Program-made: the position numbers and the translations under genes
Assembly: GCA_029204225.1 (NCBI GenBank)
Contig: CM055100.1
Location: 59,642,975 to 59,706,974 of the forward strand
Length of the DNA: 64,000 bases
From: Diphasiastrum complanatum
Lineage: Eukaryota; Streptophyta; Lycopodiopsida; Lycopodiales; Lycopodiaceae
Reading direction: 5' to 3'
The notes under the pieces: generated by a model
The model's database searches: none
The model's input: the letters and a program-made list of their open reading frames with translations, nothing else
Told to the model about the DNA's origin: nothing
Part shown: positions 4,091-63,099 of the stretch, piece by piece
How positions within the stretch are numbered: position 1 is the first letter of the stretch
Layout of the letters: each line of letters starts with the position of its first letter

Positions 4091-4776
4091 TCATCCAATA
4101 TGCAAGACATTTTTTCAATGACCAACAAAATGTTCAAATACCCTAACTTAAATTAAAATAACAAGCACCCGTTTTTTTTTTTTTTGTAAAATCAATACAA
4201 AATGAACACAACACTTTTGTGAAATAAACTCATAAAAAAAGAAAACCATCTATACACATGATTTTCTGAAAGAGAACACTATAAAAGCCTATAGTGTATT
4301 CTTGTCTATGACACATGTATTTAGAAAACATATTGTGGCTTTTATAGATAATGAATAGTTGCAGATATTCAATTCAAAGCTAGAATATAACAGTCTCCAA
4401 AAAAAATTTAGTTCATGTATGAAACATCCTGGCTCTGCCATCATGAGTGAGAAAGTTGCATATTAGATGTCAAGCGGCTTTGCTGTCTTTATGCTCCAAC
4501 ATTGGCATGTCGACACTACAAAGAATACAAATCAAAAGTAATAGCTGAAATGGAAACAACTTCCAATAAGAATCTTAAATCTCTAAACGAAAAAGAATAT
4601 TAGGCTAATAATAAGTATAGCTAGACAAAATTTTTGAAATTTGGTCCTTGTTGGAGCTTGGAAGAGAGAATTTGAAGTTTTAGCTTAAATCTTCACCATG
4701 ATCTTCTAATTGAACAATGATAAGCTTGATAAGGCCCATAAGTGTTAAGAGTCCAAATGATAATACTTTAGGTTCC
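4090..4776. other. AT-rich spacer with no recognisable feature
   Basis: Apart from a short poly-T run near 4171-4185, I see no coding motif, PBS, polypurine tract or tandem repeat in this stretch. Its right edge at 4777 is where the GGCGCC-rich repeat begins with TGTAGCG. Confidence 0.5.
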
Positions 4777-5559
4777 TGTAGCGTAGGCATCCCAAAGGGA
4801 GCCGGCAACCACGACTTAGCTTCCCAGCCTTCAACTCTTGCCATCCAAACCCACTTGACATACAAGAAGCCAACTCGCCAACAACGATCTGACTTAACCA
4901 ACTTGAAGTTCTGAAAACCAACATTGAGATCCAACCTGGCGCCATGCCAGATCGGGGGTCCCGAAGTGGGTGACTTCCCTCCAAGCAAGCCGCCCGACAT
5001 AAATCAAACTTAACCAACTTGAAGCTTTGTTACAAATGAGTAACATCCATTCCAAGCAAGCGGTCTGACTTACATCAGATTTAACCAGCTGAAACCTTCG
5101 TCACGAGCGCTGGAAGCCAACCTGGCGCCACGCTAGACTGGACAGCCATAAATAGGTAACTTCCACCCAAGCAAGCCATCCAACTCAGCCGACAGGTTAG
5201 AGCCCGTTCCCCAAGAGCTTAACCCATTCACGTTCATGCAAGGAACACTCAGAGCCACAAGCCGCGACAGATATGGAAACAACCAATTCCTGGACCAAAT
5301 GGTCCCGACAGCATACCGCTGGCGCCACGGACCGAATGGTCCCGACGGCATACCGCTGGCGTCCCGGGATACCACCCTCAGCTATGTGCCAACTTAAAAA
5401 TTTGGAAGCGGCCTTACAACTGGCGCTTTTACTGAACATTGGAACCCATAAGGTAATCAGAGTCAGTTTGAGAAAAATCCCACGTTATTGATAAATCTGA
5501 GAAGGTTACATTTCAAGTGTGTCACCAACCCTAGTCTCCGGGGCACTAGCATGCCAAGG
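4777..5559 (+). repeat. Partial LTR-like copy 1, direct orientation
   Basis: This copy starts TGTAGCGTAGGCATCCC and ends at the CTAGCATGCCAAGG shared with the next copy, which then continues into about 310 bp that copy 1 lacks. It contains internal degenerate repeats of the type AAGCAAGC..TCTGACTTACATCA..TTAACCAACT. It also has a two-unit 36-bp repeat around 5292-5362 whose key block is CCGACAGCATACCGCTGGCG. Confidence 0.7.
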
Positions 5560-6609
5560 TATAGCGCAGGCATCCCAAAGGGAGCCGGAAACCACTACGT
5601 AGCTTCCCAGCCTTCAACTCTTGCTATCCAAACCCACTTGACATACAAGCAGCCAACTCGCCAACAACGATCAAACTTAACCAACTTGAAGTTCCGAAAA
5701 CCAACATTGAGATCCAACTTGGCGCCATGCCAGATCGGGGGTCCCGATGTGGGTGACTTCCCTCCAAGCAAGCCGCCCGACATACATCAAACTTAACCAA
5801 CTCGAAGCTTCATTACAAATGAGTAACATCCATTCCAAGCAAGCGGTCTGACTTACATCAGACTTAACCAACTGAAAGCTTCATCACAAACGCTGGAAGC
5901 CAACCTGGCGCCACGCCAGACTAGTCAGCCATAAACAGGTAACATCCACCCAAGCAAGCCATCCATTCACGTTCATGCAAGGAACACTCAGAACCACAAG
6001 CCGCGACAGATATGGAAACAACCAGTTCCTGGACCAAATGGTCCTGACAGCATACCGCTGGCGCCACGGACCGAATGGTCCTGATGGCATACCGCTGGCG
6101 TCCCGGGATACGACCCTCAGCTATGTGCCAAGTTAAAAATTTTGAAAGCGGCCTTACAACTGGCGCTTTTAACGAACACTGAAACCCAGAAGGTAATCAG
6201 AGTCAGTTTGAGGAAAATCCCACTTTATTGATAAATCTGAGAAGGTTACATTTCAAGTGTGTGACCGACCCTAGTCTCTGGGGCGCTAGCATGCCAAGGC
6301 GAGAGCCATGACAACATTCCAGCAAGGGAGGCTGAGACTTGGTTGGAGCTCGCCCTGAGTCGCAACCCGCACTCCCCTATAGTATTGGTGTGATTCGGCA
6401 CCCCCCCCCCCTCATACCAAGCACTCAACCCAAGCTGGTAAAGCACGTTTTTCTCTCTCTAGTATTTTCTCTTTCTAGAAAGTCATTTTCTCTCTCTAGA
6501 TTTTATTGATCCCCAGGCTTCCTTTAATCATGCCTAGATCGTGTGAGGTGATTGCACATCGATCTGAGCTCTCTGGACTCCGCTAGAACCGATCAAAAAT
6601 TTTCAACCA
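5560..6609 (+). repeat. Full LTR-like copy 2 with PBS-like site at 6617
   Basis: This copy matches copy 1 over its first part, then adds 6290-6609, including CTCTCTAG-rich and TTTTATTGATCCCC segments. It is followed after 7 bases by TTGGCGCC (6617-6624). It is the left arm of the large inverted repeat: positions from about 5560 up to 6655 pair with about 7947 down to 6811, with position sums near 13467 over most of the inner part. The element it would serve points toward the centre near 6735. Confidence 0.65.
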
Positions 6610-6650
6610 TAGGAACTTGGCGCCGGCTGGATTCTGGTCACAGTGGCGCC

Positions 6651-6724
6651 GGGAGCGACGCCGGCGCCGTTGGCGCCGGGAGCAGCCGGGAGCGACGCCG
6701 GCGCCGTTGGCGCCGGGAGCAGCA
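6651..6724. repeat. 37-bp direct repeat of GGCGCC-rich sequence
   Basis: The block beginning GGGAGCGACGCCGGCGCCG occurs at 6651 and again at 6688, a period of 37 bp. It lies next to the PBS-like site, and the same GGCGCC motif recurs on the other side of the palindrome centre (6763-6850). It is the most GC-rich stretch of the window. Confidence 0.75.
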
Positions 6725-6732
6725 GGGGCTGT

Positions 6733-6750
6733 TGTAAAGCTACCTTTACA
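6733..6750. repeat. 18-bp palindrome TGTAAAG-CTAC-CTTTACA at the fold centre
   Basis: TGTAAAG and CTTTACA form a 7-bp inverted repeat around a 4-base loop close to the centre of the large palindrome. The same motif recurs at 8004-8021 and 8462-8479, each time next to GTAAAGC and a GGCGCC block. The recurrence suggests a fixed structural part of the element rather than chance. Confidence 0.7.
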
Positions 6751-6857
6751 AGCTTTACTTGCGGCGCCATCGGCGCCAGCTATGTCCGTGGCGCCAGCAG
6801 CGCCACTGCTGCTCCCGGCGCCACTGGGACCAGAATCCAGCCGGCGCCAAGTTCCTA

Positions 6858-7947
6858 TGGCTGAAAATCTTTGATCGGTTCTAGCGAAGTCCAGAGAGCT
6901 CAGATCGATGTGCAATCACCTCACACGATCTAGGCATGATTAAAGGAAGCCTGGGGATCAATAAAATCTAGAGAGAGAAAATGACTTTCTAGAAAGAGAA
7001 AATCCTAGAGAGAGAAAAACGTGCTTTACCAGCTTGGGTAGAGTGCTTGGTATGAGGGGGGGTGCCGAATCACACCAATACTATAGGGGAGTGCGGGTTG
7101 CGACTCAGGGCGAGCTCCAACCAAGTCTCAGCCTCCCTTGCTGGAATGTTGTCATGGCTCTCGCCTTGGCATGCTAGCGCCCCGGAGACTAGGGTCGGTC
7201 ACACACTTGAAATGTAACCTTCTCAGATTTATCAATAAAGTGGGATTTTCCTCAAACTGACTCTGATTACCTTCTGGGTTTCAGTGTTCGGTAAAAGCGC
7301 CAGTTGTAAGGCCGCTTTCAAAATTTTTAACTTGGCACATAGCTGAGGGTCGTATCCCGGGACGCCAGCGGTATGCCGTCGGGACCATTCGGTCCGTGGC
7401 GCCAGCGGTATGCTGTCGGGACCATTTGGTCCAAGAACTGGTTGTTTCCATATCTGTCGCGGCTTGTGGTTCTGAGTGTTCCTTGCATGAACGTGAATGG
7501 GTTAAGCTCTTGGGGAACGGGCTCTAACTTGTCGGCTGAGTTGGATGGCTTGCTTGGGTGGATGTTACCTGTTTATGGCTGTCCAGTCTGGCGTGGCGCC
7601 AGGTTGGCTTCCAGCGCTCGTGACGAAGCTTTCAGTTGGTTAAGTCTGATGTAAGTCAGACCGCTTGCTTGGAATGGATGTTACTCGTTTGTAACGAAGC
7701 TTCGAGTTGGTTAAGTTTGATGTATGTCGGGCGGCTTGCTTGGAGGGAAGTCACCCACGTCGGGACCCCCGATCTGGCATGGCGCCAGGTTGGATCTCAA
7801 TGTTGGTTTTCGGAACTTCAAGTTGGTTAAGTCTGATCGTTGTTGGTGAGTTGGCTGCTTGTATGTCAAGTGGGTTTGGATGGCAAGAGTTGAAGGCTGG
7901 GAAGCTAAGTCGTGGTTCCCGGCTCCCTTTGGGATGCCTGCGCTACA
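6858..7947 (-). repeat. Inverted LTR-like copy 3
   Basis: Read on the minus strand, this copy begins TGTAGCGCAGGCATCCC at 7947 and ends at 6858, followed by the PBS-like TTGGCGCC at 6850-6843. It repeats the full structure of copy 2 in opposite orientation. Together the two arms form the palindrome. Small indels and substitutions are visible between the arms, so it is not a perfect recent duplication. Confidence 0.65.
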
Positions 7948-8022
7948 GGGGCGCTGCTGGCGCCGGGGACATAGCTGGTGCCGATTTCGTCGGAAGTAAA
8001 GCCTGTAAAGGTAGCTTTACAA

Positions 8023-8490
8023 CCAAGGTGAGAGCCATGACAACATTCCAGCAAGGGAGGCTGAGACTTGGTTGGAGCTCGCCCTGAGTCGCAACCCGCA
8101 CTCCCCTATAGTATTGGTGTGATTCGGCACCCCCCTCACACCAAGCACTCTACCCAAGCTGGTAAAGCACATTTTTCTCTCTAGGATTTTCTCTTTCTAG
8201 AAAGTCATTTTTCTCTCTAGATTTTATTGATCCCCAGGCTTCCTTTAATCATGCCTAGATCGTGTGAGGTGATTGCACATCGATCTGAGGTCTTTGGACT
8301 CCGCTAGAACTGATCAAAGATTTTCAACCATAGAAACTTGGCGCCGGCTGGATTCTGGTCATAGTGGCGCCGGGAGCGGCGCCGGCGCCGTTGGCGCCAG
8401 GAGCAGGGGCGCTGCTGGCGTCGGGGACATAGCTGGCGCCAATGGCGCCGGAAGTAAAGCTTGTAAAGATAGCTTTACAACAGTTCCAAG
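8023..8490 (+). repeat. Truncated LTR-like copy 4 with its own PBS-like site
   Basis: This copy keeps only the right third of the repeat (from CCAAGG.GAGAGCCATGAC), ends near 8330 and is followed by TTGGCGCC at 8338-8345, a GGCGCC block and the TGTAAAG palindrome at 8462-8479. It joins copy 3 through a short GGCGCC block at 7948-8003. After 8490 ordinary AT-rich DNA resumes. Confidence 0.6.
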
Positions 8491-25759: not shown

Positions 25760-26870
25760 GAGAAGTGCTAGCAATGGTATATAGTGCGACAAAATTCTGC
25801 CATTACCTCCTAGTCAATCCCTTCATCTTATTTGTCGATCACCAAGCCCTACTGTCTCTCGTAAACAGACCATGCACCACTGGATGATTCATAGGTGGTT
25901 GTTACTTCTCCAAGAGTTTGACTTTAAATTGTCGTTCGCAAGGGCAAGTAGCACTATCTAGTTGATTACCTCTCACAAATACGCAACATTCTTAAGAGTA
26001 AAGAGGCAGATGATGAACTCATTGATGCCATATTAATTCACCTCGACGCCATCTCAGCATGGGTAGCCGACGTCATTGGATATCTTATGTCAAGACGTCC
26101 TCCCCTAGAAATGACCAAAGTGGAACAATGTAGGTCGATCACAAAATTTTCTCCCTATACATTTATAGTAGGATAGCTGTATTGTAGATGTAATGATGGA
26201 ATCACATAGTGATGCATCCTAACACACGAGGTGTCCCAAATAGTGAGCATCGCACCCATGAAAGAATAGACGGAAGGAACTTTTTTACCAAAGCTATAGA
26301 TAAGAAAGTGTTGTAACATGGGCGGTGGTGGCCCACAATGTTCATATGTGACGTGTGTCAAAGGTTTAATAGAATCCATGAAAAAGACAAAATGCCATTA
26401 TGACCTATCCTGACTGAGATGCCATTTGAAAAATGGGGCATTGACTATGTCGGCCCTATACACCAAGCTGCACAAGATTCCCACACTCGATTTATCATCG
26501 TAGTATCATTTACCTACCAAAATGGGTCGAAGCCAAGGTAGTACGAAAAGCAGATGCTAACTCTACTACCAAATTTTTGTATGAAAATATTGTAGTTCAT
26601 TTTGGTTGCCCACTCAAACTTGTAAGTGATTGCGGTACCCATTTTTAAACGAAACCATCACTAACTTGTTGTCTTCATATTCGGTTGTCCATAGGAAGAA
26701 TACCCCCTATTATCCATGATGTAATGGACAACTAGAATCATCAAATCAAGTCATTTTTAGTATTATCACGAAAATGGTAGAGGCCACACACTCAAATTGG
26801 AAACATAAGACTTCAAGCGACACTATGGGCTTTTAGGGCCACTTTCAAAGTGAGCTATTAGAATCCCCAT
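25760..26870 (+). pseudogene. pol: Ty3/gypsy RNase H and integrase remnant
   Basis: Heavily decayed coding DNA. RNase H is recognisable from VDHQALLSLVNRPCTTG and WLLLLQEFDFKL in shifting frames (25840-25940). Integrase follows with MPFEKWGIDYVGPI (26420-26460), holding the first catalytic Asp, KFLYENIVVHFGCPLKLVSD (26570-26630), holding the second, and YYP-like and QATLWAF(R) segments to 26840. The closest relative in the window is the minus-strand pol at 58374-61889, which has the same KWGID.VGPI and FGCPL.L.SD words. LTR-to-RNase H continuity implies an internal deletion of gag, protease and RT. Confidence 0.8.
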
Positions 26871-37029: not shown

Positions 37030-37986
37030 TCAAAAAGGAAGTAACCTAACATTTACTTGCAAAACTGGAATTGAGGCAATTAGAAGCTTGAGTTTCCAAA
37101 AACTCTCATCTAATTTCTCTTTCCACCTGATGGGAGGACTTGGCCTACCTTTGTGGCTTTTCATTCCTTTCAACATATTGTTGAGAGGCACAACAATCTT
37201 CGAGTACTCCTTTGCAAATCTATGGAAAAACACAATGAAACCTAAAAATGACTTAAGTTCATGCACCGTTTTAGGGACTCGCCATTCCACTACCCTCTTC
37301 ACCTTTTCTTCGTCAATCTTGATCCCAAAGGAGGTAATCTTATGACCTAGGTAAAGAAGTTCCTACTTAAAAAATTTGCACTTTGATTCTTTCGCATAAA
37401 GCTTCTCTTGTCTTAGGATACGTAGTAAGACAGTACGGAGATTCTTAGCATGCTTTTTGAGTGTTCTGCTATAGATCAGAATATCGTCCAGAAACACTAC
37501 TACAAACTTTTCCAAAAATGGACAAAATAAATCATTTATCATTTGCTAGAAAGTAGCCGAAGCATTCGTCAAACCAAAGGGAAAAACAAGAAACTTGTAG
37601 TGGCCAAACTTTGTCCTAAAACCGATTTTAGATACATCATCCGAATGTATCCTAATCCAATGGTATCTTGTACATAGATCAATTTTCGTGAAGTATTTAG
37701 CTCCATTCAATCGATCTATGAGATCGTCCATCCTGGACAAGGGGTATTTATTTTTAACTATAAGTTTGTTCAGACCCTTGTAATCTACACATAGCCTAAA
37801 ACTCCCATCTTTCTTACTCTTAAGAAGGCCAAGTACTCCCCATGGAGATTTACTTGGTCTTATGTGTCCCATCCTGACATACTCCTCGATTTGCCTAGCC
37901 ACTTCCTCCTCTTCCTTTTGACTGAACCGATATGGTTGTCTGAAGATAGGACGACTATCGGGCAAAAGATCTATCTTATGATCCAC
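37030..37986 (-). pseudogene. pol: Ty3/gypsy reverse transcriptase
   Basis: Minus-strand RT: DHKIDLLPDSRPIFRQPYRF (37985), EYVRMGHIRPSKSPWGVLGL, FRLCVDYKGLNKLIVKNKYP, FTKIDLCTRYHWIRI and FLVFPFGLTNASATF. The last is followed by a TAG in place of a Gln codon (37546). The catalytic box VFLDDILIYS (near 37480) keeps both aspartates. A second stop precedes the thumb/connection part VVEWRVPKTVHELKSFLGFI (37300-37030). The RNase H and integrase are missing to the left. The lineage looks chromovirus-like. Confidence 0.9.
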
Positions 37987-38047
37987 CGACCGAGCGGGTG
38001 GTAGTCCATAAGGTAGCTCTTCGGAAAAACTTCACTAAACTCTTGCT

Positions 38048-38690
38048 TTAAATCTTGCAAAAGCTGTTGTTCCTGATGCGAATTTTCGGTGTTAAAGCAT
38101 GAAAACACATCCACATCCCCAACATCACAATGCATACAGATTTCAAAAGCAAATGAAAGAGTTCATACTCAAAATCATGAAATTTCTCTATTGATTCAGT
38201 CGAGAAAATTATCAGCAACAGAAGTACATCGATCTCTCCATAAATAGAGACAATTTGATCAAACTTACTTTTAAATACCATAGAATGATTTTTAAAATCT
38301 ATCTCTAAAGAGTCTTATTTGCCAAAAAACCATTCATAGTCCAAATTTACCGGTCTAGATTCATGACATGGAAATCCAACGGCTCCACATAGTCCTACAT
38401 TTGAAGCTCTAAATTAAAGACTTTGACATCCCATGTCGAGCCCTGAGGCAAGACAAACTACGTAACAGTGATCACTGGCCATGGTGGGCACTCGGAGCTT
38501 TTGCACAAGTCGAGCATTCAAAAAATTGTGAGTACTACTTGAATCAAATAGCACATTCACGGCTTTTCCTAAAATATGTCTCTCACATGAAACAATTCAT
38601 TAGGCCTGAAAGAGAGTGCACTAAAGTTACAAGTACAGTCACAATTATTCAACAAATTGACTTCCAATTTATCTGCTGGTAAATACACAG
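38048..38690 (-). pseudogene. pol: Ty3/gypsy protease region
   Basis: In broken frames on the minus strand, AVNVLFDSSSTHNFLNARLV at about 38575-38515 is the aspartic protease loop with Ser in place of the invariant Gly (DSS for DSG). The linker from protease to RT (38281-38048) has no strong motif. It connects the gag remnant on the right to the RT on the left. Confidence 0.7.
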
Positions 38691-39427
38691 TCATGAAACT
38701 TGACGACTTAGCTTTCCATTTGGGGCTTGTTTGGCACGGTGCCCGGGTTTATTACAGAGGAAACTCATATTCTGTTTTAGCATCGTCAACCGTGCTTTGT
38801 CTTTCACCACAAGTTTCTTTTTATTCTTTTTCTTCTTTGATTGTTGGTACACTTCTGCTTCCGGTTCATCAAAAAACTGTCTTTTACGCTTGTTAGATTT
38901 TTCTTGCTTGGGTTTCGGGGCCGTTTGGCCATGCACATTTTTCTGTGATGCAACAACTATACTATGATAAGCTTTCGCCACACAAATAGCATCCTCCAAT
39001 GAGTTGAGGATATTTTGTTTGCACTGATTTTGATAGTCGGCTGGCAGTCCCTGGCAATAAATTGCCATCGTGCTAACTTATGATCAAACAGCGGCACCTT
39101 GGCCAATGAGTCCAAGAACTCTTGGACATAACTGTCCAGTTCTCGGCTGCCCATTTTATAGTTGATAAACCGAATATACAGCTCAAAATTGTCTACCGTG
39201 ACAAAAGCTTTCCGAAATTCTGTCAGGAATCCAGCCCAAGTCACCGGTTTTGTGGAAAGTTCCCTCCACCAAGAAGAGGCTTTGTCTTCTAGAAACAATA
39301 GAATCGAGAATATTTGTTTATCCTCTGGGACGTTCAGCAAGCTAAAATAGCTTGTCCAACGGTTTTGCTCTTTGATGTCTTTTGTTCGAAACATATTCTT
39401 GCATTCCGCAAAATTGATCTCGATCAT
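38691..39427 (-). pseudogene. gag: Ty3/gypsy gag
   Basis: The reading begins at 39427 and carries a retrotransposon gag core: NRWTSYFSLLNVPEDKQIFS, FLEDKASSWWRELSTKP, WAGFLTEFRKAFVTVDNFEL and LDSYVQEFLDSLAKVPLFD. After a frame change near 39060 it continues through a basic segment rich in Lys (KKKKNKKKLVVKDKAR) to a knuckle-like SFLCNKPGHRAKQ, which lacks one cysteine. Gag would form the particle. No LTR or PBS is seen immediately upstream; the nearest PBS (42054) is of the tRNA-Asp type and may belong to another element. Confidence 0.8.
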
Positions 39428-40900: not shown

Positions 40901-41014
40901 GAATTGTGTGAAAATTCAACCCATAGTATCGGAAGCCTGTTTCCAGCGTTTATGATTGGTCCACGACCTCAATGAGGGCTTTTTTCCTAAGCCCTAAAGT
41001 CGGTGATTTTCATT

Positions 41015-41715
41015 GGGATTGTTACCATTGAGAAGTGACACCTCGACTTCATGTGTCACATGTCTAATAAGAGTTTTATAAAGATGTTTAGGAAGTACTA
41101 TTTGTACAAATCAGGCTAATACAATGTAAAAGAAGACTCTAGCTATAATGAGTGTTTGAAGCTCAAACAATGAATGAGAAAATGGGATAAAAGTTGTGAA
41201 CTTATGCTCCATAGGTGTGTATACACTCTTGCAATTTTTCATATGAAACATTTTTAGCATAGATAGAGCGCATTAATGGAATGGTCTGCGAAGCTTATCC
41301 CTGCAAGGATTTTTTGGATATGATCATTTTAGTGATTTTTCACACTTAAATCCACTTTTCTGCTTGGGATTGTTACCATTGAGAAGTGACACCTCGACTT
41401 CATGTGTCACATGTCTAATAAGAGTTTTATAAAGATGTTTAGGAAGTACTATTTGTACAAATCAAGCTAATACAATGTAAAAGAAGACTCTAGCTATAAT
41501 GAGTGTTTGAAGCTCAAACAATGAATGAGAAAATGGGATAAAAGCTGTGAACTTATGCTCCATAGGTGTGTATACACTCTTGCAATTTTTCATATGAAAC
41601 ATTTTTAGCATAGATAGAGCGCATTAATGGAATGGTTTGCGAAGCTTACCTCTGCAAGGATTTTCTGGATATGATCATTTTAGTGATTTTTCACACTTAA
41701 ATCCACTTTTCTGCT
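41015..41715 (-). repeat. 351-bp tandem duplication of a copia RT tail
   Basis: Two copies, 41015-41365 and 41366-41715, are almost identical; differences include AGG/AAG near the CAAATCA(G/A)GC block and TCTGCG/TTTGCG. On the minus strand each encodes a decayed copia RT C-terminal segment around LKMFHMKNCKSVYTPMEHK, where the family has L..F.M..CK...TPME. The exact duplication of a coding remnant without target-site features suggests unequal crossing over or replication slippage. The high similarity says it is younger than the decay of the coding sequence. Confidence 0.8.
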
Positions 41716-47960: not shown

Positions 47961-48558
47961 AGAAAACTCCGTGTTTATCTATGCGACACTTAACACTTAG
48001 CCGATTTTCAAAATTATGTTTGCATGGAACATCCACGTGTGGATTATCCACACCAAAAAATTTTTGAGCACACCTCCGACAAGTCCATCGGTGTTTTTCT
48101 GACATGGCACCGAAAAATTTATGCGCGTGGATAATTCATGCAAAATTGAATTTTGAAAATTCTGGTAGTTGCTTGGGAGGGAAGCTTGGCGGCACCGGCG
48201 GACGACGATTTTACGCGTGAATTATCCATGCAAATTCGGTTGTCTCAACAACTTCACTAGACCGGGAAAATATTCCGGTTCCACGTTAAAGTTATCCATG
48301 CGTGGATATCTTCTGCATGGATTATCCACTCGATTATTTTTTTTTGCTTGTTGATAATGAAATGGAATTAGTTGAATAAATATTTTTCTAAAGTTCACAT
48401 TCAATGGTACATTCCTACACATACTCGAGTCAAGGTGGTCATTATTGCCCCCTTACTAGACGTAGAATAGTGATTTTGTAGCAGACAAGACTGCACATTG
48501 CCAAAGCCAAGGATTGGAAGCAAGAGAATGCATTGCAGAGATACTGAACCATAAAAAA
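47961..48558. other. Spacer with repeated GGATTATCCA words
   Basis: Words such as (G/T)GGATTATCCA, GGATAATTCATGCA and AATTATCCATGCA recur at 48034, 48127, 48222 and 48290-48330. They look like a degenerate array with partial inverted symmetry. No coding motif is seen. Confidence 0.4.
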
Positions 48559-49019
48559 TCATGAATTAGTTGGTTTGATCTCATTAGGACCAAAATAAAG
48601 TGTTTAGAAGTCAATTTGGTTTTTTCAGTTCACAAACAAAAATGTATCCCGGAGGCTTTTCATTTTTTTCGTCCAAAATCATGATTTTTGGTTGTTTCAT
48701 TTCATCAAAAAGCCAAAAAAAACATTTAGAAGCTAAAAATAATTTTAAAAGGAAACATGGTGAGGCACGAGAAGGGGCCCTTTGACTTGTCAAAGGGCCC
48801 CTGGTCGCGCCTCACTATGATTTTTAATTTTTTTTTTAAGCTCTTAAACACTTTTTTTGGGTTCTGATGAAGTGAAACGGCCAAAAATCGTGATTTTGGA
48901 CGAAATAAATGAAAATTTAACCTCTGGAATACATCTTCGTTTGTAAACTGAAAAAAAAAAAAATTGACTTCTAAACACTTTGCTTTGGTTCTAATGAAAT
49001 CAAACAGACAAATTCATGA
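48559..49019. mobile_element. Foldback element with GGGCCC core
   Basis: The two halves are inverted copies. TCATGAATTAGTTGGTTTGA at 48559 pairs with the end at 49019, AAAGTGTTTAGAAGTCAA pairs with TTGACTTCTAAACACTTT, and the arms meet at AGGGGCCCTTTGACTTGTCAAAGGGCCCCT near 48775-48801. Arms are about 225 bp with scattered mismatches and indels. No coding capacity. It fits a MITE or foldback transposon; I cannot assign a superfamily or a target duplication. Confidence 0.75.
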
Positions 49020-49300
49020 ATTTTGATGGAAAAATAAAAATGTATCCTCCACGAGGCCAAAATTTCATATTTTTTTTTGTCCAAAATTGTGATTTTTGGC
49101 CGTTTCACTTCATCAAAAGGCCAAAAAAAAAAACGTTTAGGAGCAAAAAAATTATTTTTTTGGTAAATTTTAAAAATCATGGTGAGGCGCGAACAAGGGC
49201 CCTTTGATTTGAAATGGCCAAAAATCACGATTTCGGACGAAAAATATGAAAATTTGGCCTCCTAGATACGTTTTTGTTGTTTTTTGGACATGATTTTCAT
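49020..49300. mobile_element. Second, shortened foldback copy
   Basis: It contains arm segments of the preceding element: AAATGTATCCTCCACGAGGCC and GTCCAAAATTGTGATTTTTGG at 49037-49110. Their inverted counterparts GGCCAAAAATCACGATTTCGG and GGCCTCCTAGATACG lie at 49213-49271, around a shortened centre (GGGCCCTTTGATTTG). One half is incomplete, so this is a deleted neighbour of the same family. Confidence 0.65.
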
Positions 49301-53354: not shown

Positions 53355-53819
53355 TGTCGCATTTTTTGCATGACAATTTACGTTCATTTCTATAGAGTTA
53401 CAGTTTACGTTCAAATCTGCACACATTTGGTTTACGACCAAAGCCACTAACTTGAATTACTTCATCAGCAAGTAATTTTTGAGAATTCTTAAGTGGATGG
53501 ATGCCAGCACATCACAGCCAACCGGATGACGCATTTGACGACCTAATTGCTTAGTATAAATAGCTACTCATATTTCTACATTTCAAAAAAAGAAGAAGGA
53601 TTGAAGATGAAGATCAATCATCAAGTATTGAATAGTTAGCGTTTTCTCTCAAACCTGCGAGCTTGAACACTCTTGAGCATTCTAGATCAGTTCCTTAGAG
53701 TTGATTAGAGATTGCTACTGCTTTGTTGGGAGTATTTCTAGTTCGTGCGGTGGCTAGATCTACTTACGGGTGTAGTATAGAGATGTAGAGATTCGTCTAC
53801 TTTTTAAGTTTCTACAACA
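53355..53819 (+). repeat. Probable solo LTR with TATA box
   Basis: TGTCGCATTTTTTGCATGAC at 53355 and TTTCTACAACA ending at 53819 could be LTR termini. GTATAAATAGC at 53554-53564 is a good TATA box, followed by purine-rich leader-like DNA. No PBS follows at 53820. The TATA box is solid; the element call is an inference. Confidence 0.35.
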
Positions 53820-54536
53820 AGCTTCAATGGAAATACGAAAATAAAACAATGATGAAACACTAAGGCTTACCCAACTAGTGCTCGAAACAGAAATGAAATT
53901 AACTGAGATGACAAAATACAAAACCTTACTAAGGCTTACCCAACTAGCAAGGTGATTAGACTAAATCCTAGATTAACACCCAAAGGGTAATAAAATGAGA
54001 TTGCAGCAAATACTAAGCAAATAAGCAATAATGAACTTGCCCCAATAAAACTGATGAAAAGGAGGCAAGAGGAGGCCCGAGCACCTTCCTTCAAGCTATG
54101 CACCTTTCCGAAGGGAACACAAATGAAATAGAATGATAATTCTCCAAAATAGAGAGCAAGATAGCTTAATCTCACAAGTGTTGTTTAAAATGCAAATACC
54201 TCTCCTTTTATGGCAAGGAGGGTCTTCCATAAGTATCTACTAACTTATGGGACTAATCTGTTTCTAGCCTTTCTAGAACTTCTAACTTAGGATTTAGAAC
54301 TTCAAATTTCTTAACTTAGGAAAACTTAAGATAAAATATTTCTAATCTAAAGTTTCCTAAGTCTAAGTTCTAAATCTAAGTTTAAGCTTTTTTATTATTA
54401 TTTAAGCTTCTACTCATGGACTTACAACACACATGCCATGGCTGAAGTTTATTGACAGATACTCATATGTGGTCTTACAAAACACATGCCACGGAGTTTT
54501 ATTTCTATTTTCTCTGTGTTAGCACAGTTGCTAACA
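53820..54536 (-). repeat. 3' LTR of the gypsy element
   Basis: The inner edge TGTTAGCA (minus strand, 54536) follows the polypurine tract. The first 20 bases form the inverted repeat TGTTAGCA-ACTG-TGCTAACA. A direct repeat CTAAGGCTTACCCAACTAG lies at about 53869 and 53931. The left edge is inferred. Confidence 0.6.
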
Positions 54537-54550
54537 TTATCCCCCTCCTT
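54537..54550 (-). promoter_or_regulatory. Polypurine tract of the gypsy element
   Basis: The minus strand reads AAGGAGGGGGATAA immediately before TGTTAGCA. It shows that everything between the end of pol and this point, including the accessory coding region, lies inside the element. Confidence 0.8.
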
Positions 54551-54590
54551 ATTGGATTGGTGGTCCCACACCAATCGACACCTTTTCGTC

Positions 54591-57500
54591 CTAGATCTTT
54601 TGCGCTTCTTGGAGGCGAGACTGTTGCTGTCGAGAGTGGTAGATTGTCGTGTCGATTCCCTCCATCATTTGCCACCGTAATTTGTTCAGGAAGGGCATGG
54701 GTTTGTAACAATGGAGCATACCCTGGAGAAAGTTATGGGTTTTCCATAGCTCCACCATATCAACGTGCAGGGTGGAAGTGAGTGCAGCGTGATAATAGAG
54801 CCTTGCAATGTTGATATGGTCGTCTTGCGTGCGCAAGGGTTTATTGATATCAAGGGCAATTGGTTGTTACCCTCGATCCCAAAAACCTCTGAGTTCTTTC
54901 AGAAATGCCACCAGGCCGCAATTATCCACAAAATATCTGACATCGCAATCGGGATTGCCATGGTGCTTCTGGTAGAATACTCGGTAGTTGGTGACCATGT
55001 CTTCGGCTAAGTTGCTGGTATCCACGCCTATGAGTTTAGGCCAAAAGATTCTGTTCTTGACCCTGGTGGCAGGAAACGGTTCTCGCCTCGCTACTGGATA
55101 GTAATAAGGATTGGTGCGCATGTAGGAGGGAGCTTCGAGATACAGAGCCATTGAGGTCTTACTTTGTAGGAAGAGCTGATGACGCCAGAGAGGTTGTGGA
55201 TTCAGGAGTTTGACTGCTGCTTTATGTGTCTAACACTGGTCCAAATCTGGCAGTATGTAGCCACCTCGCTCTTTCGTTGTTGGATACTTCTTTGCAAACT
55301 CCTGAGAGGTGTGCAACTCCTTGCTTGGTTCTGTGGGCGTGATTCTGTGCCGGATGGTTGGTGCTTCAGAGGCAGTCTCATGTTCGGTTTGTGGATCGGG
55401 TTCAGGAGAGAAAGGAGACAAGGGGTTAGCTTCTGCAATTCTTTGTGACTCAGGAGAAAATTGTCATGGAATGAAGGTGGGGTTAGTGGTGTCGAGAGGG
55501 TTAGAAGCGGTGGAAGGGAAAAGATAATGTTGGGAGCAAGTACCCCCAAAGCCCGACGGATTGGTTGGTGTTTGAGCTCCTTGCCCCCCAGGGGTTGTCC
55601 TTGAAATGCGGAGCCTTGAGTTGCAGGAGGAGGCTGTTGGAATCCTGCTCCATCTCCACCATCTGGTCCATCAAAGTGGTGTCCCGAATCATGGAATTGG
55701 GCGTGCTTTCCATGAACCGACGGGGTCGACTGGGCAGCAGCCTTTAAGCGTTCCTCCAGGGTGGCTATGTGCTGGTTTAGGGCCTCGACGGAAGCAATGT
55801 ATGATTGTTGTAATTTTGAGTGTTGCTCCATCGTGGCTTTCAGCTTTTGGGCCAGCGTTTGATAGGCCACCACTAGAATGGCAGTTCCCTTAGAAATAGC
55901 TGGTGGTGCGAAGTCGTTGAAGTCCACCATTTCCAATTGTTCATTCATAGTGGAACGTGCTGCTTGTGAATCTGCTATAGCCTCATCCTTTTCGACTTTG
56001 AGGGTATTGATGGTTTGATGCATGTTGGATACCTTCAGTTGGAGCTGGTTTTGGAGGTGGAGTAGCATCTGTTGTTGTTGTTGATTGTAATTTGTTAGGT
56101 TCTAAATCTGCAACTGTTGTTGTTTGCTTTCCTCCTCCAGCCTTGCTTTTTTTTTTTTTTTTCTGAAGGCCCGCCATTGCACCATTGTCGAATTGCCGCA
56201 TAGTATACTGTCCCCCTAGGGTGCCGAATAGATTGTATTGGAGCTCATTCACCAACCATACCGCTTTTTGGGCTGCAAGGGATAGCTGCTCCCAAGGACC
56301 AATTTCAAGGAGGGTGCGTGTGTAGTTAGGATATGGCATTGGGTTAAATGGTAGAAAATCAGGAGTAGGGCTAGACGAAGGTGTATGAAAGGCAGGTGGA
56401 GGTGATTGTGGATTGAGGGGTGGGGAGATACTGCGTGGCAGAGATTGTTGGATTGGGTTAGTGGTGACAGTGGTTGATGGAAGTGCAGTTAGTAATTGTA
56501 ATGCAAAATCATCTACGTTGACTGTGGAGTCAAGTACGGTGGAGATTTGTATAGGTGAGGGCTTTTGTGGAAGTGTGGAGGTGAAGCCCATGTTGAGAGT
56601 TAGTGAGGGTGTGGAGGTGGCAGTAAATGGTGGGGGTGGTGGTGGGAGTGTGAGAGCAAGTGATGGAGAGGATATTGCCTGTGTGGATGGAATCACGCCC
56701 ATAGGATCAGAGCCGGAAGTGTCTTCCATTCTGGAGCTGCCTGCTGCTGCTGCTACTGCTTGTCGACGTTGTTGGGCCTAGTGAAGTAAGGCCGCTTGCT
56801 GCTCTAGGACCTCCTTTGGGACCTGAGATGGTTTAAGGCTCCCTCCAGATTTAGCATATTCCACCCCGATGTCGCTGGATAGAATGTCATGTGGGACATC
56901 GGCTTCTGTGCTGATTGCCTCCCCTTTCTGTTTCTTAGTAGGTGGGGCTGGTGAGACCAGGTCTGCTGTCAGTTGGAGGGTGGCTCGCTTTTTTGTGCTT
57001 GGATAAACATCATCCAGCTCCTTGATGGCAGCAGCCGCTCTAGATCCTACTTGTTTGGTGACCAACATGTGGAGGAGATACCCACATTTGGTAGTTGGTT
57101 TGCGGGCTTTCAAAGCTCCGCACAGCTTCTTTGCTACCTTCTCATTCCACTTGTAATTTTGAGTGGGATCGTCCATGGTGAGGGTCAGAGAAAAGAGGTC
57201 GCTCAGTGGGATGCGATCCATCTTGGTGGTATGCACTACAACCATGGTGACGAGAATCTCTAAGGCAACCCATAGTTGGGGATCCGTGATGAGGCAAATA
57301 GCGATCCTGTCACTGGTTTGGGAAATGGTTTTGTCGTCATCTGTCAAAAATTTTGTGAAGTACTTGGCATCATAGTTGGTGCCCTTTCCATGGATTGTCT
57401 CTCTGAGATTAGGAAAGCCGATGCTCTGGAGATCCCCAGGAGAGACGTTGATAATAGAATAGCTGCCACTCTTGGATGTAATCTGGAAAGTTTGGGACTC

Positions 57501-57706
57501 ATCCGAATAGGTGGAGTAGGCTGTTCGGATGAGGCTCTCGCTCTGCTGGTCCCGAAAAAGTGTCAGATCAAAGCCAAGGTTGGTGAGGATATCCTTGGCC
57601 AGTGTGAGCTGCTCGGCATAATTCTTAAGATAGATCATAACTATATCCCCTGAATAAGGACGAGGTTACGGCGATGCAAGCTAAGTAAGGAATCGCGGGA
57701 AGCCAT
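54591..57706 (-). pseudogene. Accessory open reading frame in the envelope position, function unknown
   Basis: A likely start is the ATG at 57706 (ATGGCTTCC); after about 20 codons a G-run frame change leads into an open stretch from 57638. This runs 286 codons to a TAG at 56780-56778, then continues in the same frame to 55983. A T16 run (56147-56162, A16 on the coding strand) shifts the frame into a coiled-coil segment open to 55202. After another shift it continues through 55151-54867, one stop and 54836-54591. Parts: an N-terminal globular region with a basic PPTKKQKG; a Pro/Ser/Thr-rich linker with PPPPPP; a helical segment; a coiled coil (TLKVEKDEAIADSQAARSTM, VEALNQHIATLEERLKAA); a C-terminal part with NPYYYP and many aromatic residues. 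No signal peptide or clear membrane anchor. I do not recognise the family. It could be a structural, nucleic-acid-binding or envelope-like protein, or a captured gene. Confidence 0.65.
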
Positions 57707-58373
57707 GATAGCAGTGATTTTAGATTGCTTTGAGAACTTTGAAAATTTTGAAAAAAAATTGGCATGAACTCGAGAGCAACAATCTAAAATGAACTCGTGG
57801 AGAGAAGGTGGAGGACTATATATAGACTTTTTTTGGCATGAATTTGCAACTTCACCCAGAAATTGTCCTCAATGTCCACGATTTGGTAAGGATGGTCGTG
57901 AATTTTGAGGCAATGTTCTGAGGGCCCGCGAATTCTTGTAAGAGATTTTTTTATGCCAAAAGAGAAAAAACGTCTGACAGTGCAAAGATGTGTCTGATCA
58001 GAATCCACAAAGATAGCAGAGAAATCGTGAGGATCAATTTGAGCTGTAGCGAATTGTCTGCAAATTCTGAGGATGGATATTTCATGAATAAAACTACATT
58101 TTTCTATTTTTAGACATTTTTAAATCTGAGACAGAATTCGCGAAGACCAAAAATGGATCGTGCTCTGTAAAAAAGAGGTCAGATGAATTCTATTTGAGAT
58201 GTTGTGAAAAAATTATCTTGAAACAAATGACTTTTGTGGTTTTCTCAGAGAAAACTGTTGGTATACTTGATCTGATAGTATCTTGATGGGTGGAACAAGA
58301 AAGCACAGCAAAAATGGTGTTGAAATGGCATGCAGACAATGAAAAGGAGGAAAAACAGTAGGAAAGAAAACAG
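57707..58373. other. Non-coding spacer between pol and the accessory region
   Basis: About 670 bp with no open frame of note and no protein motif. It could carry the signals (splice acceptor or internal promoter) that would express the accessory region. I see no convincing TATA box, and a splice acceptor cannot be assigned by eye. Confidence 0.5.
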
Positions 58374-59602
58374 CTAATACATATCAAGATAAAAACAGGG
58401 TTCATTATACTTTCTCAGTCGACTCCCATTGACCACAGTGTCGAGGATATCGCCTTGAACTGTTTGGAGTTGGACATATCCAGAGGCAAAGATTTTTTTA
58501 ATGATGTAAGGTCCTTGGCCAGAAAATTTCAATTTGTCTTTGAAGGCTTTGGCCTGATATAACAGGACCTTATCTCCAATCTGAAAATCTCTAAGTTTCA
58601 ATGATCAATCATGCCATGTTTTTTGTCGTCGTTTGTGGACTTGTTGAGCATGGATGCTGATCCTTCGTGTTTCAGAAAGTTGCTCCACATGGAATAACCT
58701 ATTTGCTAGACTCTGAGGAGTATCGAGCTCAAGGTTATAGGCTACTCGAAGGGAGGGGATATGGAATTCCACAAGCATAACGGCTTCTTGGCCATATGTG
58801 AGTTGGAAAGGGGTTAATCTTGTAGCTCGCTTCGGGGTGGGTGGTGCGATAAGCCCAGAGAGCAGCATGAAGTTTGAGTTTCCAATCAGATCGGCTAGAT
58901 TCAACGGTTTTGGTGAGAATTTCACATAGGAATTTATTGGTGGATTCTGCCTGGCCATTGCAACGTGGATAGTATGGGAAACTTTTGCGATGTAACACAA
59001 AAAATTTGGAAAGAATATCTGCTATGACAGAGTTAAAAAAAAGTGTGCCCCTATCACTGATAAGCTCTAGAGGACATCCAAACCGAACTATAACTTGTTC
59101 ATAGAGAAATTTGGCGGTAGAACGAGCGTCAACATTGCGAACAGCTCTTGCTTTAGCCCATTTGGTGCAATAGTCTGTAGCTACTATGATGTAACGAGAT
59201 TGTGTGTGTCGAGCAACAAGACTAATAGGTCCGACATGATCAATTCCCCATTTCTGGAAAGCTTGATCAGTGGTTACGGAGTGTAGAGACATGTAGTCTG
59301 TTTTTTGAAAGCGTTTGGTGCATTGGTAGACATCACAAGCCTTAGTGTAATTATGCGTATAAGAGTGATGGCCACCAAAAATCGGCTAAAAGGATTTTCT
59401 TAGCAGTTGTTTCAGAAGAGAAATGGCTGGCACCAATACCTTCATGAGTGAGGAAAATTACAGAAGGTATTTCTCCTTCAGTAGGACATCGTCGGATAAT
59501 TCCATCTAACCCTTGCTTGTAGAGTTGTCCTGGGATTAACGTATAAGGTTTAGTTTTGAGGACCAACGCACGTTGTTCAAGTTTAGGGAATGAAGGATCC
59601 AT
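58374..59602 (-). pseudogene. pol: Gypsy integrase with GPY/F-type C-terminus
   Basis: Minus-strand reading: the N-terminal zinc region is partly preserved (GIIRRCPTEGEIPSVIFLTH, FWWPSLLYA, 59560-59355). The core begins QKWGIDHVGPISLVARHTQS (59245), with the first catalytic Asp, and continues ATDYCTKWAKARAVRNVDAR. FGCPLELISDRGTLFFNSVI (59090) carries the second Asp, and YYPRCNGQAESTNKFLCEIL (58970) the catalytic Glu. All three are intact. After a frame change near 58850 come LTPFQLTYGQEAVM and a stop near 58603. The C-terminal module has FSGQGPYIIKKIFASGYVQLQ-type sequence (GPY/F) to 58374. The N-terminal zinc region and frame breaks make it non-functional. Confidence 0.9.
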
Positions 59603-60201
59603 CTGCCCTGAAGTTAAATATTTGGTAATTTCCTTAGCCCATACAGGTGTAGAGTCAACTTGGAAAAGGATTGCATCTGGTAAATCATTGTTGATGCCTT
59701 GATCAGGGGTAGGAAGGTTAGGGATTCGAGATAGATGGTCTGCTAAAAAATGTTGAAATCCCTTACGAACTACGATCCTAAACTCAAATTCTCACAATAA
59801 TAGGATCCATCTAGTAATATGGCCTGTGGTGCACGTCTTGTTGATGAGATACAACAGTGCTTGATGATCAGTGAAGAACGCAAAGACTTTTCCTAGAAGA
59901 TAATGGCGAAACTTCTGAACCGCATATACCATTTCCAAGGCTTCGCATTTGGTAGTAATTTAATTGACTTCAGCAGGTATCAACTGTCAACTAAGAAAAC
60001 GAATTGGGTAGTCCTTTTTGAATTCTCCCAGTTGGGTGAGCACTGCTCCAATGACATACTTGGATGCATCGATATGCACATGGAATTCTTTAGAATAATC
60101 AGGAGCCCGGAGGATGGGTGCAGTGGTGAGGGCTTCTTTGAGTTGATTAAAGACGACTTGTTGTTCATCCGTCCATTTGGGAACTACAACTACTTTGTAG
60201 A
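59603..60201 (-). pseudogene. pol: Gypsy RNase H
   Basis: In broken minus-strand frames the domain reads VVFNQLKEALTTAPILRAPD, HIDASKYVIGAVLTQLGEF, CEALEMVYAVQKFRHYLLGK, FFTDHQALLYLINKTCTTGH and ADHLSRIPN. The catalytic residues of the DAS, E and TDH segments are present, but stops fall near 59990 and 59965. It degrades the RNA strand during reverse transcription. Confidence 0.85.
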
Positions 60202-61070
60202 TTAAGCATGCTTTGTTAGCGAAATCGAAAATAAAGCACCGATAGTAGTTGGCGTGGCCAAGGACGAAGTAAACTTCACGTATTGTATGCGGTTCCGGTA
60301 GATTTTGAATGATACGGATCTTTTTAGGGTCGTGGCAATGCTATTTCGTGAGATAATATGTCCTAACACAATACCATGGGTTACCCAAATCTGGCATTTT
60401 TCAAGATTGAGAGAGATGCCGAAGCGTTGGCATTGGATAAAAATCTTTTCGAGCATATACAGATGGCGTATTTCTTCGGAATGTGCACCTAAATCATCCA
60501 AGTAAACTTCTAAGGTATCGCCCATCTGCTGAGAAAAGGCCGCTTGCATAACACGTTGGAAGGTGCTAGGAGCATTGCAGAGACCAAAGGGCATGACTTT
60601 CCAGCAGAAGGTTCTCCATTATGTGGCAAACGCGGTTTTGTGTTGATCTTCTTCAGTGATTTGGATCATATTGTATCCGCTAAAGCCATCTAAGAAGGAG
60701 TAAGCCTCATCTCCTGCTAGATTTTCTAAGGTGGATTCTCTGAAAGGTAATGGAAAATGATCACATTCAGTGACGGCGTTAAGTTTCTTAAAATCAACAC
60801 AGATGCGGAGTTTTCCATGTTTCTTGGGGACGATGACAATTGGGGAGACCCACTCAGTATGCTCAATTTCATAGATAAATCCCGCATCTAAGAGGCATTG
60901 TAATTCTTCTTTGATCTCGGCCTTATAGATGGGACTGCATCTGTATGGACGACTCGCAGTGGGTCTCGCACCCGATTTAAGCGGGATACGATGCACAGCT
61001 ACTTGGGGTGAGATGTCTTTCATGTCTTTATAGTCCAGGCAAAGATATGTTGATATTTTCATAGGAGCTT
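60202..61070 (-). pseudogene. pol: Gypsy reverse transcriptase
   Basis: Minus-strand reading: SPQVAVHRIPLKSGARPTAS, PYRCSPIYKAEIKEELQCLL, VSPIVIVPKKHGKLRICVDF, LNAVTECDHFPLPF, DEAYSFLDGFSGYNMIQI. A single stop near 60617 separates this from KVMPFGLCNAPSTFQRVMQA and the catalytic box EVYLDDLGAHS (60520-60490), which keeps both aspartates. It continues FGISLNLEKCQIWVTHGIVL and LGHIISRN. The domain is nearly complete in length. Confidence 0.9.
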
Positions 61071-61889
61071 TTCAAGCCGTCTACGTTGTTCGCGATTGAG
61101 AGGAGCTTCGACATGGACAAGATATTCGTTGGTTTCATTTGGCTCACTCAGGGAAAGGGTTATGGTTTCTGCAGGGCCTTTGTAGGGTGAATTACCAATT
61201 GGCTCACGTTGAGCTTGGGGTAATTGGATTGTGACATCCTCAATCGTATAGTCCTTAAAGTATGCAAGAACATCATGGGCTGGAGATTCGAGGGGAGCCT
61301 TGTCTTTCTCTTGCCAGGATGGGGCTTGAATTTATTGGGGATTGGTGTAGGAAATCTCAAGAATTTCTCAAACAATGGTGAGGTCACCCGACAGTTGAAT
61401 TTGAAGTGGTCTTTTTATTTTCTCTTTCATAGTATGACCACGTGATTGAGGTTTTGGTGGTGGAGATGTGTGTGGATGAGGGACAGTTGGTATGTCATGG
61501 AGGATCTCGTCATCAATTTGAAAGATAGTCTCCTCCTCACAGAGATCCCATGGATAGTGTGGACATTTGGGACGATAGAATTTTGTCTCAGGTTTTTCAA
61601 TTGCAACCTTGGCAACTAGTTCCACCTTGGAAGCATGTTGCGGATAGGTCCTAGGTGAGAGTGCTTCCATATAGTTGAGGATCTGAAGATCAGAAATGTC
61701 CATATCTTCTGGGCAATTTTGAATTCGTAAGACATTCTCGTTATCAATGAATAAATCGTCTGATTCATTAGTAGGTAGCCATGCAACATTTAGCAGTTCA
61801 TCATGGTGTGGAAGAATATCAATAAAATTGACATTGATGATAGGTGTATCCAGATCAGGTAATTGGTCATGATCGATCGGGAGTGAGCT
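61071..61889 (-). pseudogene. pol: N-terminal pol linker of the gypsy element
   Basis: A long open stretch on the minus strand (61703-61368, extending up to 61889 in the same frame) carries acidic and proline-rich sequence (VPHPHTSPPPKPQSRG) and no catalytic loop. After a frame change it continues to HVEAPLNREQRRRLEKLL and KYQHIFAWT, the usual segment just before RT. The protease would lie further upstream but is missing. Confidence 0.7.
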
Positions 61890-62395: not shown

Positions 62396-62414
62396 AAATA
62401 AATAAAAAATGTGT

Positions 62415-62713
62415 AAGTAGTTTATGAATGAAAAGTACCTCATGCTTAGTTTGTTGTTTGATCCAAATGTTAAATGCAACTCAAAAAGTATTATTTTAAA
62501 AACAATTCACGAACATCGCTTCTCCAAGAACTCTACTCCAAGAACATCACGATAAAAATAGTGCGCGTATTTTTATCGTGATATTCTTGGAGTAGAGTTC
62601 TTGGAGAAGCGATGTTCGTGAATTGTTTTTAAAATAATACTTTTTGAGTTGCATTTAACATTTGGATCAAACAACAAACTAAGCATGAGGTACTTTTCAT
62701 TCATAAACTACTT
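62415..62713. mobile_element. 146-bp-arm hairpin with one mismatch
   Basis: The arms 62415-62560 and 62568-62713 are complementary at 145 of 146 positions (the mismatch is C at 62545 opposite A at 62583) around the 7-base loop GTGCGCG. There are no indels. No coding capacity. Such a structure fits a very young foldback element or MITE, or a hairpin RNA locus. I see no convincing target duplication at the edges. Confidence 0.85.
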
Positions 62714-63099
62714 TTCATTTTATATTTTATTGCATTACTTCAGATCCATTATGAATGACAATACTTTATTGCATTGCTTTGTGCACATCATAAATTTCAT
62801 TTAAATTTTTATATTTGATATTTCATTTGTCTACATTTGTTTTGATTGTTTTGAGGTGCTATCAATGTGTACTTGATTTTCAGGTTGGAGTCCGTACTCA
62901 GACAATGTTTCACATGTGTGAAACCAGAAAGTACACCTACCTTCAATCAATGATTGTTTTTGTTAGGAGTTTGTATCTAGAATTGATCTAAAATTGATCT
63001 TAATCCCAAGTAGATTGATAGATCAAGTAATCTAACAACCAATCCCTCTTGAGGATCAGATTAGAATCCACTCTTGGTCCTTTTTGTACTTTTTGCATA
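62714..63099 (+). repeat. Copia LTR 3' part upstream of a PBS
   Basis: The LTR edge is set by the PBS at 63100; the last bases are TACTTTTTGCA. The left edge is not visible. The CACATGTGTGAAACC inverted-type word near 62911 and its relative CACACGTGTGAGGCC near 63264 are of uncertain meaning. Confidence 0.45.

Follow-up and report, generated by a model that had tools for sequence, protein, structure and literature searches.

A Ty3/gypsy family of Diphasiastrum complanatum with an extra reading frame of about 1,050 codons downstream of pol

The element and its extra frame

The window studied here is a 64,000-nucleotide (nt) stretch of Diphasiastrum complanatum DNA (assembly GCA_029204225.1, contig CM055100.1, positions 59,642,975–59,706,974). 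It carries on its minus strand a Ty3/gypsy element in which a decayed pol is followed by a leader, an extra reading frame, a polypurine tract and a 3′ long terminal repeat (LTR). The initial annotation had read the region between integrase and the polypurine tract as a same-sense coding region, and the comparisons with shuffled sequence and with the rest of the window, together with the period-3 signal, bear this out. The features are listed below in the direction of transcription, with ratios of nonsynonymous to synonymous change given as dN/dS (substitutions) or pN/pS (differences) and NLS standing for nuclear localisation signal.

60205–61071, minus: reverse transcriptase in two broken pieces (Pfam RVT_1, E 8e-6, under its cut-off, and 3.6e-14)
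59792–60340, minus: native RNase H, broken by stops (RT_RNaseH_2, E 2e-19 over 59990–60340)
58377–59791, minus: integrase pieces, comprising zinc-binding, core and C-terminal parts (rve, E 4.9e-8; H2C2, 0.031, under its cut-off)
57707–58373, minus: leader of 667 nt from pol to the extra frame, without coding signal, 83–96% alike across copies
57816–57824, minus: TATA-like site, about 118 nt upstream of the ATG, found in all 21 copies
57704–57706, minus: ATG that starts the extra frame; in frame in 16 of 20 other copies, not in the window copy
56781–57665, minus: N-part, 295 residues with NLS-like TKKQK (dN/dS 0.32; shared versus private variants; 133 scored genome matches)
56157–56777, minus: proline-rich part (14% proline), open in copies, constraint not detected
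55500–56101, minus: coiled-coil-like part plus following stretch (heptads; copies; pN/pS 0.29 in this frame at 56106–55907)
55233–55463, minus: C0, acidic linker rich in proline, serine and threonine (composition; copies)
54870–55229, minus: C1, aromatic basic part of 120 residues, with mixed constraint results
54594–54866, minus: C2, 91 residues (dN/dS 0.25; pN/pS 0.28 at 54906–54707)
54549–54551, minus: TAA ending the frame in most copies examined, within the polypurine tract, in 10 of 10 copies
54537–54553, minus: polypurine tract (sequence and copies)
53724–54536, minus: 3′ LTR of 813 nt, TGTT...AACA (sequence and copies)

The order of reverse transcriptase, RNase H and integrase, the polypurine tract and an LTR with TG...CA ends are those of Ty3/gypsy, and the family that hosts the extra frame is probably a non-chromovirus, OTA-like one. 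Four acidic residues of the native RNase H are readable by eye, the last of them in the next piece. Tat elements with an additional RNase H have a second such domain and a degraded native one; here no second domain was seen in the pieces scanned, the leader lacks a coding signal, and the part 5′ of 61904, where pol is interrupted by another repeat, is absent. The stop codon of pol lies at 58374, and neither a 5′ LTR nor a gag of this element was found within the window.

Three minus-strand open runs of 299, 295 and 264 codons lie in the extra frame. Among 500 dinucleotide shuffles, a longest run of at least 295 codons arose once and a second-longest run of at least 264 never. Crossing the region takes at the fewest six stops and frame changes (1.9 per kb), compared with a minimum of 12 in 300 shuffles, and these tests rule out base composition as a chance source of the openness. 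The four most open of 488 same-size windows (250-nt steps, both strands) all overlap the extra frame. Since pol of the same copy has 12 disruptions in 3.5 kb (3.4 per kb), the extra frame is if anything better preserved than pol, to which the initial annotation had ascribed about the same level of decay. A period-3 signal exceeded all 100 shuffles in the N-part, the proline-rich part and the coil, and in the C part it matched the highest shuffle value (3.2 for both); the signal of leader and LTR stayed inside the shuffle range. Three internal stops checked in the window copy are absent from the other copies compared (20, 9 and 9 copies, respectively), and some genome matches lie within open runs of up to 797 codons.

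Copies across the genome and the ends of the frame

We searched the window's own assembly (1.745 Gb, 5,176 contigs) with the N-part and scored 133 of 7,535 candidates, and the genome figures refer to these scored matches. At least 133 matches, the window included, were obtained, the others being 79–88% identical. Twenty matches selected for the N-part were examined with their flanks. All 20 carry the leader, whole or in part, together with the N-part; 16 have integrase pieces upstream, 12 have C1 and C2 downstream and 14 have the LTR, the remainder being without these parts or ending with the stretch. The distance from C2 to the LTR is 57 nt in nine of the ten copies counted (window included), and in the tenth the LTR match opens with base 2 in about that position. 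The copies also agree with the polypurine tract (54553–54537) and 3′ LTR (54536–53724) as first annotated.

Since these copies had been selected by the N-part, a second sample was drawn by integrase, consisting of the 20 best integrase matches on large contigs after exclusion of the window, six known N-part carriers and four small-contig matches. Part of the extra frame is held by 16 of the 20. N-part sequence lies directly downstream in 14, one of them with 21 residues only; two have other parts of the frame, one the leader only and three nothing. Copies that lacked the region had been named as a possible objection, and most sampled copies keep at least part of it. The extra frame belongs to the element family.

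A long frame here could also stem from a second, unrelated element inserted after integrase and before the LTR, with the frame as its gag, and other elements do lie close by within the window. We regard this as extremely improbable: the same order and joints recur in copies on 13 large contigs, and no gag match was found in Pfam or in the Protein Data Bank (PDB). More generally, no gag or pol family in Pfam was matched by the extra frame, so the check on this point suggested at the outset gave no sign of a second element.

The copies also define the ends of the frame. An ATG in frame 45 nt ahead of the N-part, equivalent to the one at 57706, is present in 16 of the 20 other copies, in agreement with the start first proposed. 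The end at 54591 is probably not that of the family; seven of ten copies (window included) read past it to a TAA in the polypurine tract (54551–54549), which is present in all ten copies examined. With the ATG at 57706 and this TAA, the frame would therefore comprise about 1,050 codons. At 54549–54553 the stop codon falls within the polypurine tract, so that in most copies examined the coding end overlaps the priming site.

Constraint along the frame

Selection was assessed by pairwise Nei–Gojobori comparison, with incomplete or frame-broken pieces excluded from each set. For the N-part (21 copies), mean dN was 0.060, mean dS 0.190 and dN/dS 0.32, and all 209 usable pairs were below 1, one pair without synonymous change having been dropped; the off-frames gave 0.64 and 1.05 and the antisense reading 0.62. 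C2 gave 0.25 (10 copies, 45 of 45 pairs below 1), compared with 0.90 and 0.96 off-frame. The dN/dS test proposed with the original prediction has thus returned values well below 1 and specific to the frame in N-part and C2, among copies that are undated. For integrase, one piece gave 0.48 in frame (10 copies, with 0.39 and 0.82 off-frame) and another gave 0.62 (5 copies).

A map of pN/pS by block in each frame, made with 11 copies spanning the extra frame, shows the expected frame as the one with the lowest ratio and few stops at 57706–57107 (0.29–0.32), 56106–55907 (0.29) and 54906–54707 (0.28). The second of these blocks places constraint in the first 200 nt of the coiled-coil-like part, beyond which the frame is partly ambiguous.

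We then compared variants shared by at least two copies with those private to one copy, using 18 N-parts after removal of one member of a near-identical pair and of two copies that differ in length. For these codons the neutral ratio of nonsynonymous to synonymous variants (N/S) is 2.2–2.7. Shared variants gave 82/88 (0.93) and private variants 132/62 (2.13; Fisher p 0.00018), a difference absent in both wrong frames (p 0.91 and 0.62). The simplest reading of this contrast is selection on the N-part while the family moved, followed by free decay after insertion. Taken with the frame map and the C2 ratios, the results show that the N-part, the start of the coil and C2 were under purifying selection while the family moved. 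The integrase C-terminal piece gave the opposite direction on small numbers (shared 9/1, private 25/20, p 0.07).

Several results count against extending such constraint to the whole frame or taking the figures at face value. From about 56906 to 56107, which includes the proline-rich part, no frame is preferred in pN/pS, and after 55907 the best frame is partly ambiguous, chiefly over much of 55906–55307. The shared/private counts of C2 (6/11 and 33/24) run in the same direction as those of the N-part with p 0.17. C1 has a dN/dS of 0.76 in frame (10 copies) compared with 0.48 and 0.66 off-frame. In addition, the copies share history, so pairwise comparisons are not independent, and duplicate assembly of one place may account for some of the 133 matches. 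The proposal that the region was probably coding while the element moved is accordingly upheld for the N-part, the coil start and C2; the proline-rich part appears unconstrained and C1 is mixed.

C1 (54870–55229) evolves faster than both neighbouring parts. Its shared and private counts do not differ significantly (26/7 and 52/24, p 0.36), and the block 55106–54907 in its region shows, with another copy set, a mild in-frame preference (pN/pS 0.50 versus 0.88 and 0.57). C1 may be a diversifying or host-facing stretch.

These data also bear on whether the frame is a transduced host gene, carried without a role in the element life cycle. Many extra open reading frames (ORFs) seem to have been acquired from many sources (PMC6317226). 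A passenger of this kind is nonetheless quite unlikely here, given that part of the frame is retained in 16 of the 20 integrase-sampled copies, that the N-part was constrained while the family moved and that the element leader, whole or in part, accompanies every one of the 20 N-part copies, host genes having been looked for among the scored genome matches. Fixed joints and selection together disfavour both the passenger gene and the nested element.

Relatives and possible role of the product

The protein remained without recognisable relatives. No Pfam family exceeded its cut-off for the extra-frame pieces, PHROGs gave no convincing match, and the PDB held no chain for the N-part, C1 or a 20-row N-part profile. 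Among 5.8 billion proteins, a search limited by shared words and protein length returned no relative at E 0.01 (whole protein, one frame) or 0.1 (N-part). The integrase core piece found 248 relatives in the same database, the best 59% identical, with the fern Adiantum nelumboides as the sole named organism among the 120 matches listed; relatives of the element are therefore present there, and the extra frame is not recognisable in that database. We treated as noise a Pfam match to DUF4874, which appeared in 12 of 20 rows with a best E of 0.0053 and 16.8 bits where its cut-off is 30.1. The same holds for coil-piece matches to DUF4407 and others in Pfam (E from 0.02 upward) and to two PHROGs (E 0.07–0.08). 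Viral contigs contained no relative of the N-part, coil or C1 pieces and none of integrase. Queries with integrase only gave one match in prokaryote genomes (26%, L001) and five plasmid records (29–31%).

The layout first read from the window copy (N-part, proline-rich linker, coiled coil, aromatic C-part) is confirmed, with an acidic linker preceding the aromatic basic C1 and with C2 at the end. We favour, with a probability of roughly 0.55, a third gene of this Ty3/gypsy family whose N-part, coil start and C2 were selected and whose product is most likely a nucleus-going accessory nucleoprotein rather than an envelope. In the window's dead copy this sense-strand ORF, lying between pol and the polypurine tract, is broken. 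Its intact product would be an intracellular protein with an NLS-like motif, its folded N-domain connected to a constrained C-terminus through the proline-rich linker and through a coiled coil, which would permit multimers. Possible targets are the RNA, cDNA or particle of the element itself and, on the host side, chromatin or silencing. The protein might be expressed from a short message starting at the TATA-like leader site or by splicing.

Two points speak against this assignment of function and expression. Single-sequence AlphaFold models were unusable (mean pLDDT, the predicted confidence score, 38.6 and 45.7), and the case for a nuclear or nucleic-acid function is therefore built from a single short motif, together with composition and analogy. 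The TATA-like site is present in 21 of 21 copies, yet 10.5% of leader windows are equally conserved, and TATAWA occurs twice in the leader where 1.2 are expected; an internal promoter at this site is a guess.

A third point against the nuclear reading concerns membranes. The frame has the position and sense of retroviral env, as would suit an envelope-like protein that a plant retrovirus-like element encodes as its third gene and that acts at membranes or plasmodesmata; a review terms comparable sense frames env-like and describes an envelope role in plants as controversial (PMC7264820). Over 19 residues, hydropathy in the window copy peaks at 1.79 within the N-part and at 1.69 around 55496–55552 in the coil-piece frame, the latter known from the window copy alone and falling where the frame map gives no clear frame. 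In the other copies the maxima are at most 1.60 for the N-part (20 copies) and 1.12 for C1 and C2 (10 each), with no convincing membrane anchor in these parts. No signal peptide is apparent in the N-terminus as read by eye, and the NLS-like TKK.K is kept in the N-part of 21 of 21 copies. We thus consider an envelope-like protein unlikely; the statement in the initial annotation that the protein is not a typical envelope holds for the copies, and the two segments of the window copy run counter to it.

A possible alternative to the nucleoprotein, less probable than it but stronger than the others, is distant kinship with the Transposase_32 (PF20167)/plant mobile domain group, element-borne domains without known function. 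The motif pattern of the N-part is reminiscent of these domains, as a lead only. Neither the N-part and pieces (E 1; E 10) nor the window plus 19 copies (E 10) matched PF20167, PF10536, PF03078 or PF04195 in Pfam, where filters hide weak matches. In sunflower Athila 14, a sense 3′ extra ORF in the same position carries Transposase_32 and an NLS; it shares position, sense and NLS-like motif with the present frame and differs in its 487 residues and its PF20167 match (PMC11728184).

Extra frames are common in plant LTR retrotransposons, and whether they serve any function is a question posed by a large survey (PMC6317226). The eORF-3′F/aORF-3S class (Neumann 2019, PMC6317226; Vicient and Casacuberta 2020, PMC7264820) shares with our frame the sense orientation, the position between pol and 3′ LTR, a length above 250 codons, presence in most sampled family copies and a sequence unlike others. 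It differs in that our frame has about 1,050 codons and matches neither the plant mobile domain, Transposase_28 nor Athila ORF-1 named there. Sense runs of 295 and 264 codons in the window copy exceed the 250 codons that define the class, and the frame is held at least in part by 16 of 20 integrase-sampled copies. By sequence comparison, then, this is an extra ORF of a recognised class whose sequence appears unrelated to known proteins. Retand elements also have extra frames between pol and 3′ LTR, which are antisense Transposase_28 ORFs, whereas ours is sense and has no PF04195 match (PMC11963269). A more specific proposal, which we regard as doubtful, is that the N-domain and C2 have no relatives beyond this non-flowering-plant element lineage, the accessory gene having arisen within, or been acquired by, an OTA-like lineage that has one RNase H, and having its own promoter and a nuclear role such as anti-silencing or targeting.

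Other repeats were seen in the window. Past the point where pol breaks off, 62397–62731 is a near-perfect inverted repeat, whose 164-nt arms are 95% complementary and separated by 7 nt, close to a GACGTCGG-rich stretch. A remnant of a second, related integrase lies at 25900–26832 on the plus strand (protein pieces 31–60% identical), with no relative of the extra frame downstream. A gag-like frame and reverse transcriptase pieces at 37276–39427 (minus) belong to another, distant Ty3/gypsy element (reverse transcriptase 27–28% identical to the studied one). A GC-rich repeat block at 4775–8483 includes a 2.4-kb stretch (5562–7945) that is 91% self-complementary, with more copies of parts of the block; 41013–41715 is a tandem duplication of about 352 bp (98% identical), and 48549–49281 holds nested inverted and direct repeats (68–86% alike).

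For plant LTR retrotransposons, the comparison of shared and private variants shows that selection preserved the N-part of one extra gene while its family moved. The frame map separates the other stretches that were retained from those that were not. A vague ORF thereby becomes a defined target for localisation and interaction tests.
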